Origin: a virus
Virus record (IMG/VR): IMGVR_UViG_3300020317_000013
Location: 1-24,828 of that record
Length of the DNA stretch: 24,828 bases
Reading direction: 5' to 3' (one strand)
Positions 3,498 through 21,782 of this stretch are shown one piece after another. Under the pieces are notes generated by a model that saw nothing but the letters and a program-made list of their open reading frames with translations, ran no database searches and was not told where the DNA came from. Made by a program: the position numbers and the translations under genes. Position 1 is the first letter of the stretch. Every line of letters starts with the position of its first letter.

Positions 3498-3519
3498 TAT
3501 GTTTTATGCAATCTTATCT

Positions 3520-4050
3520 CTATTTGTGACCGCGTTCTGCTGGAGTTTTTCTCATTATAATGTCCACCGCTGTATCAGCATCTTTGGCTTCATTATGTGC
3601 CTTTGCCCACGCTTTCACTACAGGCTTCAATGTCGTTTTAACATCAGCAATTGCTTTAATAGTAGGATCAATGTGACCTTTTATTATCGCCAATGAATTT
3701 TCCTTCTCATAGGCCGAATTTGAACTGCCGCCCAACTCTTGGCCCAGCCTTTTTTTTCTATCTTGCATATCATCTTCTAACCTTTTAAGTAAACGATGCA
3801 AATCAACATACCAATTTAGTTCTGTAGCGATGCCATCTTTGCTGCGTTGGCGTTTGTGCCACTGCTGTCCAATATACATTTCATTTACACTCTCAAGATC
3901 AACATCTTCTTTTTTTACATCGTCTTTGTCCCAAGGTGCTTTCTTCACAGACACTTTATCTTTTGATTGCGCCTTAACTTTAGCCAATGCTCTTTGCATT
4001 GGTGTCATTCCCTCATTCATGTCATTTTCCTCTTTAATTGGTTGATCCAT
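3520..4050 (-). CDS. Paralogue of the C-terminal domain of the upstream structural protein
   Basis: The 176-residue protein has a charged, flexible N-terminal half followed by a helical domain (about residues 75-165). That domain matches the C-terminal domain of the protein encoded just upstream: both have a D[ML][QK]DRKK block, then IKAIADV or LKAIADV, then a KxVVKA segment and an acidic end. The shared ES-V motif (LESVNE here, KESVELENVNE there) precedes the domain in both. It therefore looks like a duplicated domain living as a separate gene, one base downstream of its parent. It is probably a head or internal component, given the block it sits in; the biochemical role is unknown. Confidence 0.75.
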   Translation of the reverse strand: MDQPIKEENDMNEGMTPMQRALAKVKAQSKDKVSVKKAPWDKDDVKKEDVDLESVNEMYIGQQWHKRQRSKDGIATELNWYVDLHRLLKRLEDDMQDRKKRLGQELGGSSNSAYEKENSLAIIKGHIDPTIKAIADVKTTLKPVVKAWAKAHNEAKDADTAVDIIMRKTPAERGHK

Positions 4051-4051
4051 C

Positions 4052-5824
4052 TTATTTTCTAACTGCTTTTTTTGACGCCGCTTTATCAGCGCGGATTATC
4101 TCCCTATCCACTGCATTAGCCTCATAAAATGCCTTGTCAAATGCTTTCACTACATCCTTCAATTTACTTCTAACATCAGCGATTGCTTTAAGAGAAGCAT
4201 CATGGTGGCCGCTTACGTCCCTGTATGGCCGAGCGGCGCGAAGGTGAAGGTTTTTTCTATCTTTTAAATCACTTTCTAGCATTTTCATTGTACGATTGAT
4301 ATTAGAATACCAATCAGTTTCAGCACCTTTGCGGCGGTCTATAAAGTATGGCAGTTCGTCGCCCAAATTATCAATCAACGCTTCATTTACATTCTCAAGT
4401 TCAACAGACTCTTTTTTCACATGATTCATAAGTCTTTTACCGATAGCAGTTAGTGTACCATCTTTGTTATACATTTTAGAAACAAGTTTTTTATCTTCAG
4501 GCGATAATGGTAGGGTAATCCTGTTTCCTTCAAGTTGCACAGACTCACCAATAGTACTATCATTATTTCTTGTTGCAGATTTTGACTTAACACTATTTTT
4601 TATAGCATCCATAGTTTTATTGGAAACTTTAGGACCATCAACAAATTCTGGAGTATCAACATTATGCATATCCATAAATTCTTTTTCAGTAATTTCTGTA
4701 TCAAGAACATCATCCGCTCTGCGATTAGAAACTTGCTTATCCCAAGTATCAATATTCTGTTCAGCGTCACCTACTCTTTTCTCATCAAGAATACGCTTCA
4801 TAAGAAGGCTGGGTTCAACAGATTCTTTGGTATTTTTCTTTTTAGTCACCCAATGTTTAGAACCACCTTTAGGTTTTCCTGCTAACAGACGATCAATGAT
4901 ACCTTCTTCTTTAGTACCACCACGTTTGGATTTCTGATAAGCATTATACTCTTTACGTCTTGCAGCGTCATCTTCTTTTTCTTTGGGAGTCATTTGAGAC
5001 ACTGTTTTTTTTGCTTCAGACATTTTATCAAGTATTTCTAATCCCAACTCTTTGAGATTTTCTTCAAACTGCATAGATGACAGTACACCACTTCTTTCTT
5101 TTTCGGCCTGTTTCAATGACTTGTATGGTTTACCTTGATTGACAAACTTACCTTTAGTCATCCGTTGTACTTGAAACTCATTATCTTTAGTTTTAATAAT
5201 TTTGACCATTGCGCGGCGGTCCAGTGCGGTCTGTCGGTCCAGTGGGATTTGGTCAGATGGATATCTGGCCTGATCCAGTGGGATCATATCTTCTTTTGTT
5301 TGTTCAACAGTTTTTTTCTTATCATTATCTTTTTTAAGAACTGAACCTTTTTCGTCACGATCATCATCATTATCTTTTTCAGAATCAGCGTCTGAAGAAG
5401 TTACCTTTGGTTTATCTTGATCTACTTCACCGTCTTTATCAATCGCTTTACTTACGGTTTTACGGCGATTGTCTAGATATTCGTCAGACTTATCAACATC
5501 ACCATCATTATCAATGTCTTTGTCTTTACGATCTTTAAATTTCTTTTTCAGTGCTTTTGGTTGAACTTTATCAAGTCCTTCACCATCATCAGATTTATCA
5601 TTTGTGTTATCCTCTGACATAGAGGGGTCATCATCTCTCATCATAGACCCATCTGGCATCTTATGCTTGCCAATTTTTTTCTTCTCTGACATAGAGGGGT
5701 CATCATCTCTCATCATAGACCCATCTGGCATCTTATGCTTGCCAATTTTTTTCTTCTCTTCCAGTGCTAACATCTCTAAGTATGCGCTGGCAATATTTTG
5801 GTTTACTTCATTATTCGGGTCCAT
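4052..5824 (-). CDS. Long modular charged protein, probable internal/structural head protein
   Basis: The 590-residue product is very rich in K, D and E and looks largely disordered with embedded modules. From the N-terminus: two perfect 24-residue tandem repeats (about 23-70, containing GKHKMPDGSMM); an EF-hand-like acidic loop (DIDNDGDVDKSDEYL, about 100-115); a block QVQRMTKGKFVNQGKPYK followed by SMQFEE, which also occurs in the 537-residue protein at 6452-8065; spacer segments carrying KESVE and GESVQ; and a C-terminal helical domain duplicated in the next gene. Sequences of the I/L-x-E type, such as LEE at residues 21-23, could be prohead-protease sites. The start at 5824 has a good AGGAG site. 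No enzymatic motif is seen. Confidence 0.8.
   Translation of the reverse strand: MDPNNEVNQNIASAYLEMLALEEKKKIGKHKMPDGSMMRDDDPSMSEKKKIGKHKMPDGSMMRDDDPSMSEDNTNDKSDDGEGLDKVQPKALKKKFKDRKDKDIDNDGDVDKSDEYLDNRRKTVSKAIDKDGEVDQDKPKVTSSDADSEKDNDDDRDEKGSVLKKDNDKKKTVEQTKEDMIPLDQARYPSDQIPLDRQTALDRRAMVKIIKTKDNEFQVQRMTKGKFVNQGKPYKSLKQAEKERSGVLSSMQFEENLKELGLEILDKMSEAKKTVSQMTPKEKEDDAARRKEYNAYQKSKRGGTKEEGIIDRLLAGKPKGGSKHWVTKKKNTKESVEPSLLMKRILDEKRVGDAEQNIDTWDKQVSNRRADDVLDTEITEKEFMDMHNVDTPEFVDGPKVSNKTMDAIKNSVKSKSATRNNDSTIGESVQLEGNRITLPLSPEDKKLVSKMYNKDGTLTAIGKRLMNHVKKESVELENVNEALIDNLGDELPYFIDRRKGAETDWYSNINRTMKMLESDLKDRKNLHLRAARPYRDVSGHHDASLKAIADVRSKLKDVVKAFDKAFYEANAVDREIIRADKAASKKAVRK
5613..5756. repeat. Two perfect tandem copies of a 72-bp unit, in frame
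   Basis: Copies at 5613-5684 and 5685-5756 are identical base for base. The unit is 24 codons, so the reading frame of the surrounding gene is kept and the protein gains a second copy of a peptide containing GKHKMPDGSMM and RDDDPSMS. Full identity, including third codon positions, points to a recent duplication or ongoing homogenisation by recombination. Confidence 0.95.
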
Positions 5825-19082: not shown

Positions 19083-19111
19083 AAAAAAAAGAGTAGTATC
19101 TCTACTACTCT
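19083..19111 (-). terminator. Rho-independent terminator
   Basis: On the minus strand AGAGTAGTA-GAGA-TACTACTCT forms a perfect nine-pair stem followed directly by TTTTTTTT (complement of the A-run 19083-19090). It ends the transcript of the 119-residue gene. Not bidirectional: there is no T-run on the plus side. Confidence 0.88.
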
Positions 19112-19161
19112 CAGTTGGGAAAAACCGTCTGACGAACGGTATTAGTATGTTCTTGGGTTGA

Positions 19162-19521
19162 TCAATAAGAGGTCGCGTAAATCATATCTTCCACTGCTTC
19201 AACACAACCTTCGGTATCAAGAGCAGCACAAACAGCCGCCTCAAAAACCTCAACCACATCATTACCAGCAACTGTCTCGGAACCTCGTATAGTCGCTTGA
19301 ATACCATCTCCAGGAAACGCTGTGATCGTACCTACATCGTGATAGGAAGAACCATCAACAGTATAGCCAATGCTCCAAACAGGTGTGTTATAATCCCACT
19401 CACCATCATGATCTAGAACTCGCTCCATATTAAAATGAATTGAATTATCGGAACCACGACGATTAACCTCACGCGCCATATGACCGTGACCAGTAATATT
19501 CGCTGAAACTGCACTTTGCAT
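19162..19521 (-). CDS. Unrecognised soluble protein (119 aa)
   Basis: A 119-residue acidic protein with a beta-rich middle (VWSIGYTVDGSSYHD, GIQATIRGS) and a helical, acidic C-terminus with two cysteines. No family recognised. It is a single-gene unit: promoter at 19559-19587, AGAGAGTTTCAG leader, terminator at 19083-19111. Its base composition is a little richer in GC than the small genes to its left. Confidence 0.7.
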   Translation of the reverse strand: MQSAVSANITGHGHMAREVNRRGSDNSIHFNMERVLDHDGEWDYNTPVWSIGYTVDGSSYHDVGTITAFPGDGIQATIRGSETVAGNDVVEVFEAAVCAALDTEGCVEAVEDMIYATSY

Positions 19522-19587: not shown

Positions 19588-19950
19588 CCCTAAATCTTTA
19601 AGAAAGTATGCCTCGCACCCTTACTTAAAAACTTAGTTGCTGGGCCTTTTGAATTGGGCGCGCCCCCATCCATCCAACCCAGACCAGACTTCTCTGGGTT
19701 GACCCTATATCACCTTGCTTCGCCATAGATTTCAATTCATATAGGGAGAACCTACTTTCGCTTTTTGTGGCGTTAATTTAAACCATCGGACCTTCTCCAA
19801 TTATGAAAGTATTTTTTAACAAGGTCATGTCCTACTGTCGGAACACATTCTTTATCGTTAGGTCTAGGGATATCGCAACATACGCCCCCAAATCAAAACA
19901 GCAAATCTAATTTGCACCCTGTTAAAAAATACTTTCGTGATTCTTTCTAC
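19588..19950 (-). ncRNA. Candidate large structured non-coding RNA (about 360 nt)
   Basis: No gene with a ribosome site fits here on either strand, yet a strong promoter starts transcription near 19950. The minus-strand transcript can fold into two domains, each closed by the same heptamer pair GAAAGUA/UACUUUC (19930-19936 with 19805-19811; 19753-19759 with 19602-19608). In domain 1 the closing stem extends to 17 perfect pairs (19920-19936 with 19805-19821) and holds a GCAAAT/ATTTGC hairpin (19901-19915). In domain 2, CCCTATAT pairs with ATATAGGG (19703-19710, 19739-19746), AACCCAGA with TCTGGGTT (19676-19683, 19693-19700), and GGAGAA may pair with TTCTCC. GC-rich blocks stand out from AT-rich surroundings. 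It does not match tmRNA, RNase P, 6S or SRP RNA. The exact 3' end is unknown. Confidence 0.6.
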
Positions 19951-19956
19951 TCTTAT

Positions 19957-19985
19957 AATCTAGTCTAATTACGCTGTCGTGTCAA
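19957..19985 (-). promoter_or_regulatory. TTGACA-N17-TAGATT promoter of the RNA candidate
   Basis: Minus-strand TTGACA (19980-19985), 17 bases, TAGATT (19957-19962), followed by ATAAGAGTAGAAAGAATCAC. It has the same design as the coding promoters nearby, but no ribosome site or gene follows. Its -35 box encodes L-D-T at the end of the 74-residue gene. Confidence 0.75.
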
Positions 19986-20676: not shown

Positions 20677-20805
20677 CTAAATCGTTGCCCCTATAGTTAA
20701 TTCATTTGGATTTGCAATAAACTTAAAGGACGGGTTTGCGCTCATCCTCGCTTCACATGCGCTCAGTAGAGTAACCACCAAACCTAATACTACAATTCTT
20801 TTCAT
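20677..20805 (-). CDS. 42-aa lipoprotein overlapping the transporter gene
   Basis: MKRIVVLGLVVTLLSACEAR... of 42 residues has a basic start, a hydrophobic core and the lipobox LSAC (lipidated C17), then about 25 polar residues. Its ATGA overlaps the stop of the transporter gene, whose end also supplies the GGAGAAAG ribosome site, so the two are made together. Tiny phage lipoproteins are known as superinfection-exclusion or lysis helpers; here a partner role to the transporter is possible. Function unproven. Confidence 0.7.
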   Translation of the reverse strand: MKRIVVLGLVVTLLSACEARMSANPSFKFIANPNELTIGATI

Positions 20806-21782
20806 TTGCTTTCTCCAATCTCAATCTGCTTTTCAAACTCAGTCAATCGTTTATAGACACTGATCAACTCAACCACAATCGCCCATGACTTAACCACATA
20901 CTGTAAACTACCTTCTACCCGCCCAAATGCTCTAATAGTCTGTTGTAATACACCTAGAGTAATAGTACCAGCAAGGATAGTCGGGCCTAACGCAAGATAA
21001 GGAATCAACACCATCCCTTGGAAATAAGAGTACCGTGCCAGATTAAAGTAAGCATAATGGAAATATGATTTGAAATGAATATCTCTCACCCAATCAAATA
21101 ACTCCGCTAAAGTCTTAGGCTGACCCGCCTTCGGATCATCTTCAGCATGAACCAGCACCTTACGATAACCAGCCTCTCTCTTTTGAATATCATACTCAAT
21201 GCCAGGAAGTTTAATTCCTACCGCTGCCAAGAGAAGTGTTCCCCCCAAGGCAGTAGCAATAGCAACCCACATCAGAGAATTAGATACCTCGCCCAGTATA
21301 GGCAAATGAGTTACAGCCGCACTCAACCCGATCAGAATAGGAATGAACGCGATTAAAGTCATGATTGATTCCATCAAGCCAACCCCAAGGTCTTCCATGA
21401 TACGAGCGAACTTAATAGTATCCTCTTGAATACGTTGTGACGCACCTTCTAGACCTCTAGCATACTTGAACTTATCATGGTAATACTCAACCATACTGGT
21501 GCGCCATCTGAATATCCAATGAGATACAAAGTATTTTGTGACCACCGCAACCGCAATAAACTTCGCTGCCAACCATCCAAATGATGCCAGTGATCCATAG
21601 AACTCAGCGGGTGTTACACTACCCGGAGTAGCCAATGCCTCTTGGAGATTATTATAGAACACTCCAAACCATTCATTGATAGCAACATCTATCTGTACCT
21701 GATACCATGTAGAGCATAGGATTACCAGAGTACCTAGCAGTGACCAGTGCATCCAATGCTTTTGTATAAAGAACTTAAACAT
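20802..21782 (-). CDS. SbmA/BacA-family peptide transporter
   Basis: The 326-residue protein aligns, from memory of the E. coli sequence, with SbmA along most of its length: FVSHWIFRWRTSMVEYY, EGASQRIQEDTIKFA, GIKLPGIEYDIQKREAGYRK, FHYAYFNLAR, AGTITLGVLQQ and ELISVYKRLTEFE. Several hydrophobic helices span the inner membrane. SbmA/BacA proteins import peptides and other large solutes using the proton gradient. It lacks about 80 N-terminal residues of E. coli SbmA and starts close to that protein's YWSILGT region. A phage copy is unusual; it may change peptide or antibiotic uptake by the host or disturb membrane energy. It overlaps its neighbours on both sides in a four-gene operon. Confidence 0.88.
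   Translation of the reverse strand: MFKFFIQKHWMHWSLLGTLVILCSTWYQVQIDVAINEWFGVFYNNLQEALATPGSVTPAEFYGSLASFGWLAAKFIAVAVVTKYFVSHWIFRWRTSMVEYYHDKFKYARGLEGASQRIQEDTIKFARIMEDLGVGLMESIMTLIAFIPILIGLSAAVTHLPILGEVSNSLMWVAIATALGGTLLLAAVGIKLPGIEYDIQKREAGYRKVLVHAEDDPKAGQPKTLAELFDWVRDIHFKSYFHYAYFNLARYSYFQGMVLIPYLALGPTILAGTITLGVLQQTIRAFGRVEGSLQYVVKSWAIVVELISVYKRLTEFEKQIEIGESK

Follow-up and report, generated by a model that had tools for sequence, protein, structure and literature searches.

T4 RNA C (species 1) and RNA D (species 2) are RNAs of unknown function (PMC9697503), while GOLLD and ROOL are structured phage RNAs that often lie near tRNA islands (PMC12286853). In another setting, RNase III cleaves the leader-trailer helices of pre-rRNA, whose polycistron may also contain tRNAs (PMC10250234). 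The RNA modules described here (D1, D2 and a D3 remnant, with modules A and B in relatives) have something in common with each of these. The closest in kind are the two T4 RNAs, which are likewise small non-coding RNAs of a T4-like phage. They lie beside tRNA-Arg and the tRNA cluster, and they are classed as late whereas the promoter found here is host-type. They are not homologous to our modules by any test used here, and in T4 (AF158101) the D1 and B models had no match and the D2 model only a chance-level one elsewhere in the genome (E ~0.1). GOLLD and ROOL had been cited as precedents in a preliminary description of the locus. The genomic setting, a phage and a tRNA neighbourhood, bears this comparison out, whereas sequence, size and structure do not: the parts found here are much smaller, independent and without an Rfam match. 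The likeness to pre-rRNA lies in a structured RNA that is enclosed by a long helix and forms part of a polycistron, although our RNAs are non-ribosomal, the helix has ~21 pairs and its cleavage is putative. Finally, marine T4-like phages carry another non-coding RNA, a permuted two-piece tmRNA, which directly follows an sbmA-like gene in two contigs (L018, 5121-5541; L024, 2444-2861), but our element has no tmRNA features.

The window, that is the whole stretch of DNA analysed, is a complete virus record of 24.8 kb, and the element lies on its minus strand. Among the genes are those for a ribonucleotide reductase subunit, endonuclease VII and a cytidylyltransferase. By the cytidylyltransferase the nearest records are phage C48C1, Melnitz and Pelagibacter phage HTVC008M, and we therefore group the virus with the marine T4-like phages. 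The features of the locus, in order of transcription, are as follows.

19957-19985, minus strand: sigma-70-type promoter TTGACA-N17-TAGATT (10/12 match)
19937-19956, minus strand: leader ATAAGAGTAGAAAGAATCAC, without a ribosome site (from the sequence)
19805-19936, minus strand: module D1, a 132-nt structured RNA (z -5.47; ten distinct contigs; pair counts)
19916-19936, minus strand: 5' arm of the D1 closing helix of 21 pairs (pairing, covariation, stem scan)
19901-19915, minus strand: D1 hairpin H1, GCAAAU/AUUUGC (100% paired in ten sequences)
19826-19900, minus strand: D1 core, including AACGAUAAAGAAUGUGUUCCGA (few variable columns)
19805-19825, minus strand: 3' arm of the D1 closing helix (pairing, covariation, stem scan)
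19640-19784, minus strand: module D2, a conserved RNA element (homologues in L083 and L211)
19746-19750, minus strand: UUCUC, possible pseudoknot partner of the loop GAGAA at 19690-19694 (five pairs, invariant)
19704-19745, minus strand: D2 hairpin CCUAUAU/AUAUAGG (invariant in three sequences, hence uninformative on covariation)
19676-19700, minus strand: D2 hairpin AACCCA/UGGGUU with a conserved 13-nt loop (three aligned pairs change on both sides)
19590-19636, minus strand: D3 stub, a 47-nt hairpin with an extra 197 nt in its loop in L083
19583-19588, minus strand: TTGACA that may belong to a separate promoter of gene 19162-19521 downstream (sequence only; the -10 element is weak)

The proposal of a gene-free minus-strand stretch with its own promoter and a leader without a ribosome site agrees with what we find. 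The promoter hexamers, TTGACA (19985-19980) and TAGATT (19962-19957), are separated by a 17-nt spacer and match at 10/12 positions, and the longest open reading frame within the stretch is 36 amino acids. The promoter core TAGATTATAAGAGTAGA occurs five times on the minus strand of the window, against 0.18 expected. The remaining copies of the leader in the window lead to a ribosome site and start codon, and at the 19957-19985 promoter the RNA occupies the position that these have in the other copies. The limits first given, 19588-19985, need amending at one end, where base 19588 belongs to the TTGACA of the putative downstream promoter. No intrinsic terminator was found directly 3' of the RNA, nor any on the minus strand before 19112, past the next gene; a good one (GAGAGTAGTAGAGATACTACTCTT plus a run of T) lies at 19089-19112 on that strand, 3' of gene 19162-19521.

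The energy of the D1 fold is -44.7 kcal/mol, against -25.1 +/- 3.6 for shuffles (z -5.47; 0/200 shuffles equal it). Its closing stem, noted from the outset as 17 perfect pairs, runs on to 21 with one G-U and is the sole strong long-range stem in the 24.8-kb window, where other stems are at shuffle level. The further short hairpins that had been noted are likewise present, as GCAAAU (19901-19915), AACCCAGA and CCUAUAU. Pattern and protein searches of IMG/VR yielded ten distinct contigs with D1, and the D1 covariance model recovers the same set. Across these ten sequences, 98.4% of the cells of the named structure are paired, compared with 42-54% for slid partners. Of the 21 pairs of the closing helix, eight vary and four of these are altered on both sides, one of them from U-A to A-U in L097; the helix thus varies by compensation among the homologues, in keeping with the structured RNA first proposed. 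The covariation is modest because the sequences are 82-96% identical: 18/500 shuffles match the number of both-sides pairs and 2/500 the covariation score. One pair of the helix is a U-U mismatch in four sequences. The inner helices are nearly invariant in the ten sequences and are, for that reason, consistent with the data rather than proven. Protein coding by D1 was considered and rejected, as nearly every frame in the ten sequences contains stops.

The promoter is conserved in position, with a TTGACA-N17 promoter ending 14-26 nt upstream of D1 in 8/10 loci, and D1 adjoins tRNA genes in L076-L079, L081 and L082, though not in the window fragment. In L081 and L082, D1 stands in front of tRNA-Arg(TCT), and in L079 its 3' arm abuts tRNA-Trp. 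In L076, L077, L078 and L080 it is followed by modules A and B, arranged head to tail, and then by tRNA-Arg, within which the L080 contig stops. Two further contigs (L099 and L102) have module A, module B and a second B. Closing helices of ~19-22 pairs occur in D1, A, B and the L098 and L079 modules, around interiors of 38 to ~150 nt. D1 and B may be kin, since 0/500 shuffles reach their alignment score and the D1 model finds B at E 0.004, but this is only suggestive because the D1 model also scores the reverse strands of D1. Derivation of the upstream module of L079 from D1 is unsupported (56/500 shuffles align equally well).

Other features of these loci may be recorded here. Where the stalk ends inwards, modules A and B (L076, 514-734; L101, 10628-10860, minus strand; L098, 8960-9170) have RCGUCYGUG...GAGG(G)AAG...GGGCGUA in common, and their interiors are very different. 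In L099, a gene resembling tRNA-Arg(UCU), abnormal in its middle part, lies within a ~24-pair closing stem (4721-4835); it is not detected by ARAGORN, and Rfam gives only a weak tRNA-Sec match. The same contig has a 28-pair perfect stem around another 20-pair stem (3499-3636), possibly another module. Directly 3' of tRNA-Arg there are ~200 nt of apparent hairpins (L076, 822-1030), conserved in L076, L077, L078, L081 and L082; their position matches that of T4 RNAs D and C, and they have no Rfam match.

D2 is without the 21-pair stalk, and its fold energy is no better than that of shuffles (domain 2 as a whole, z -0.02). The evidence for D2 as an RNA element is conservation in three sequences, not energy. 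The sister contig L083 shares it, and a pattern scan found it in an unrelated virus contig, L211, where it lies between genes and without D1. The match between the window and L211 is nearly identical over ~85 nt and then reaches a hairpin with a rewritten, still-pairing stem, which is AACCCA/UGGGUU in the window, AACUCA/UGAGUU in L083 and AACUUCUG/CAGAAGUU in L211, with the loop kept. Three aligned pairs change on both sides, and with three sequences 15/500 shuffles do equally well. A UUCUC/GAGAA pseudoknot is possible; its pairs are invariant in the sequences compared and give no covariation signal. Upstream of D2 in L211 are TTGACT and TATAAT elements ~20 nt apart; the promoter scan gave no call, and a promoter there is uncertain.

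The preliminary description envisaged one large structured RNA with two domains, each closed by GAAAGUA/UACUUUC, and a possible switch of the 5' GAAAGUA between the two UACUUUC copies. The closure stands for D1, where 19930-19936 pairs with 19805-19811. It does not stand for domain 2 (19753-19759 with 19602-19608), because the distal UACUUUC at 19602-19608 sits in the stem 19590-19636, that of D3, which in L083 closes a 244-nt module (the stretch folded with that module has z -4.73). Either 197 nt were lost from the window or they were gained by L083. In L083, furthermore, GAAAGUA has become AAGAGUA and its D1 partner UACUCUC, with the distal UACUUUC unchanged. This co-change indicates that the D1 pairing of the heptamer is exclusive; it contradicts the switch, and the repeat of the heptamer is incidental. 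The window and L083 differ by 14 substitutions, which fully compensate one pair in D1 and a second in the D2 hairpin. When substitutions were placed at random on the minimum-energy fold, 0.17% of trials gave at least two such pairs, a figure that is approximate because the second pair occurs in a local hairpin, not in that fold. The stretch is thus a row of separate RNA modules and not a single large RNA: D1 occurs without D2 in eight contigs and D2 without D1 in one, and we therefore deem the modules independent. What remains of the original proposal is a structured RNA, so far undescribed, that has its own promoter; in its favour are homologues, covariation, a conserved promoter position and the lack of an Rfam match.

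On balance, we believe that these modules are probably trans-acting non-coding RNAs, released from a shared transcript by RNase III cuts in stems some two turns long. Promoter position, fold, conservation, covariation, modularity and absence of coding are read from the sequence; transcription, processing, partner and effect we infer. Host-type RNA polymerase would start at 19985-19957 and transcribe D1, D2 and the D3 remnant as a short polycistron. Each D1-type module would fold alone, shut by a helix of ~20-22 pairs, equal to two turns of A-form RNA, and the host RNase III would cleave these stalks as it does the leader-trailer helices of ribosomal RNA. Where a tRNA comes next RNase P would cleave, and small stable RNAs would be set free. 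Their invariant cores would give them a role in trans, most likely by way of a host protein or ribosomal component bound during takeover. By analogy with the rRNA helices, the stalk length and arrangement of D1 and its fellow modules match those of RNase III stalks; a two-turn closing helix is present in D1, A, B and the L098 and L079 modules and absent from D2. Modules with a common stalk are discrete parts to express and test, and they provide a concrete processing hypothesis. This is relevant to phage non-coding RNAs that neighbour tRNA genes, the two of T4 among them, whose role is still unexplained.

Against a role in trans counts the promoter-proximal position of D1 in nearly all loci, which is also compatible with a role in cis. 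The main rival, which we consider unlikely but serious, is a cis-acting leader, in which D1 would serve at the 5' end in stability or processing, protecting or separating the parts downstream of it, and would have no function once released. D1 does come right after the promoter in most loci and, in L097, lies directly upstream of the ribosome site of a gene. However, the downstream content is unrelated between loci, D1 is internal in L079, and the next gene in the window appears to have its own promoter. The core, moreover, is conserved more than the stem (9/61 variable columns outside the apical loop, compared with 14/42 in the closing stem), beyond the needs of protection. Somewhat less likely still, the modules could be exchangeable RNA cassettes of marine T4-like phages, each with a two-turn stalk and its own core, which RNase III would release as decoys against host RNA enzymes or RNA-sensing defences; modules would then be gained, lost and duplicated beside tRNA genes.

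The remaining alternatives are far weaker. A ligand-responsive leader would suit the promoter-proximal position and compact junction fold of D1, and a glutamine riboswitch has been proposed to control tmRNA in the related phage Melnitz (PMC9004378). Nevertheless, there is no expression platform, adjacent terminator, constant downstream gene or Rfam match, and the long perfect stalk leaves little room for switching, which makes a riboswitch improbable. We regard as very improbable an inverted repeat acting at the DNA level, such as an integration scar or a replication or recombination site, despite the length of the repeat and the apparent gain, loss and duplication of modules at short repeats (L099). 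The minus strand of D1 has 73 G-U cells against two A-C (the sequences are related and the cells not independent), and the closing stems of the modules are longer on the RNA strand than on the opposite one. Both observations point to selection on the RNA of that strand, and the conserved promoter and conserved unpaired core also speak against a DNA repeat. A large oligomeric RNA of the GOLLD or ROOL type is more doubtful again, since the phage origin and tRNA neighbourhood (PMC12286853) are offset by the lack of any Rfam match at E up to 5 and by independent modules of 80-244 nt, compared with >800 nt for many GOLLD RNAs. Least credible is a short peptide encoded by D2, for which a 91-aa frame is open over D2 in L211 (1956-2231), as the window carries an upstream stop in the frame, the 69 aligned bases of the L211 frame differ at four places, all at codon positions 1 or 2 and none at 3, and hairpin indels that are not multiples of three break the frame; we see no codon constraint in D2 and reject the frame as a gene.

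The expectation that the element belongs to no common RNA class was confirmed, as no Rfam 15 family reached gathering level in the window, and at E up to 5 there was only a 12-bit chance match to speF outside the element. The D1, A and B modules of relatives were likewise unmatched in Rfam, and neither ARAGORN nor Rfam found a tRNA or tmRNA in the window element. Among 50,697 phage records, Blast with the D1, A/B and D2 regions gave no relevant match, nor did the D1 covariance model in Melnitz, T4, C48C1 or HTVC008M. The exact D1 core pattern was absent from GTDB genomes, and the D1 model had no match in 197 Pelagibacterales genomes, a search without a positive control. Weak D2-model matches in Melnitz, HTVC008M and T4 (E 0.07-0.24) were taken as chance; the best in Melnitz falls within an annotated coding sequence.

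The viruses with these modules probably infect SAR11 or other marine Alphaproteobacteria. The window encodes an SbmA/BacA peptide-transporter protein (20802-21782, minus strand; Pfam PF05992, E 2.4e-131), with relatives in 66 virus loci and 65-68% identity to Pelagibacteraceae proteins. Among bacteria, the phage sbmA is nearest to the Pelagibacteraceae copies, and this suggests, but does not prove, a SAR11-type host. Finally, a contig binned as a Hellea MAG (L131) has an sbmA 90% identical to that of the window, compared with 65-68% for the other bacterial copies listed, and may be a misbinned phage contig.
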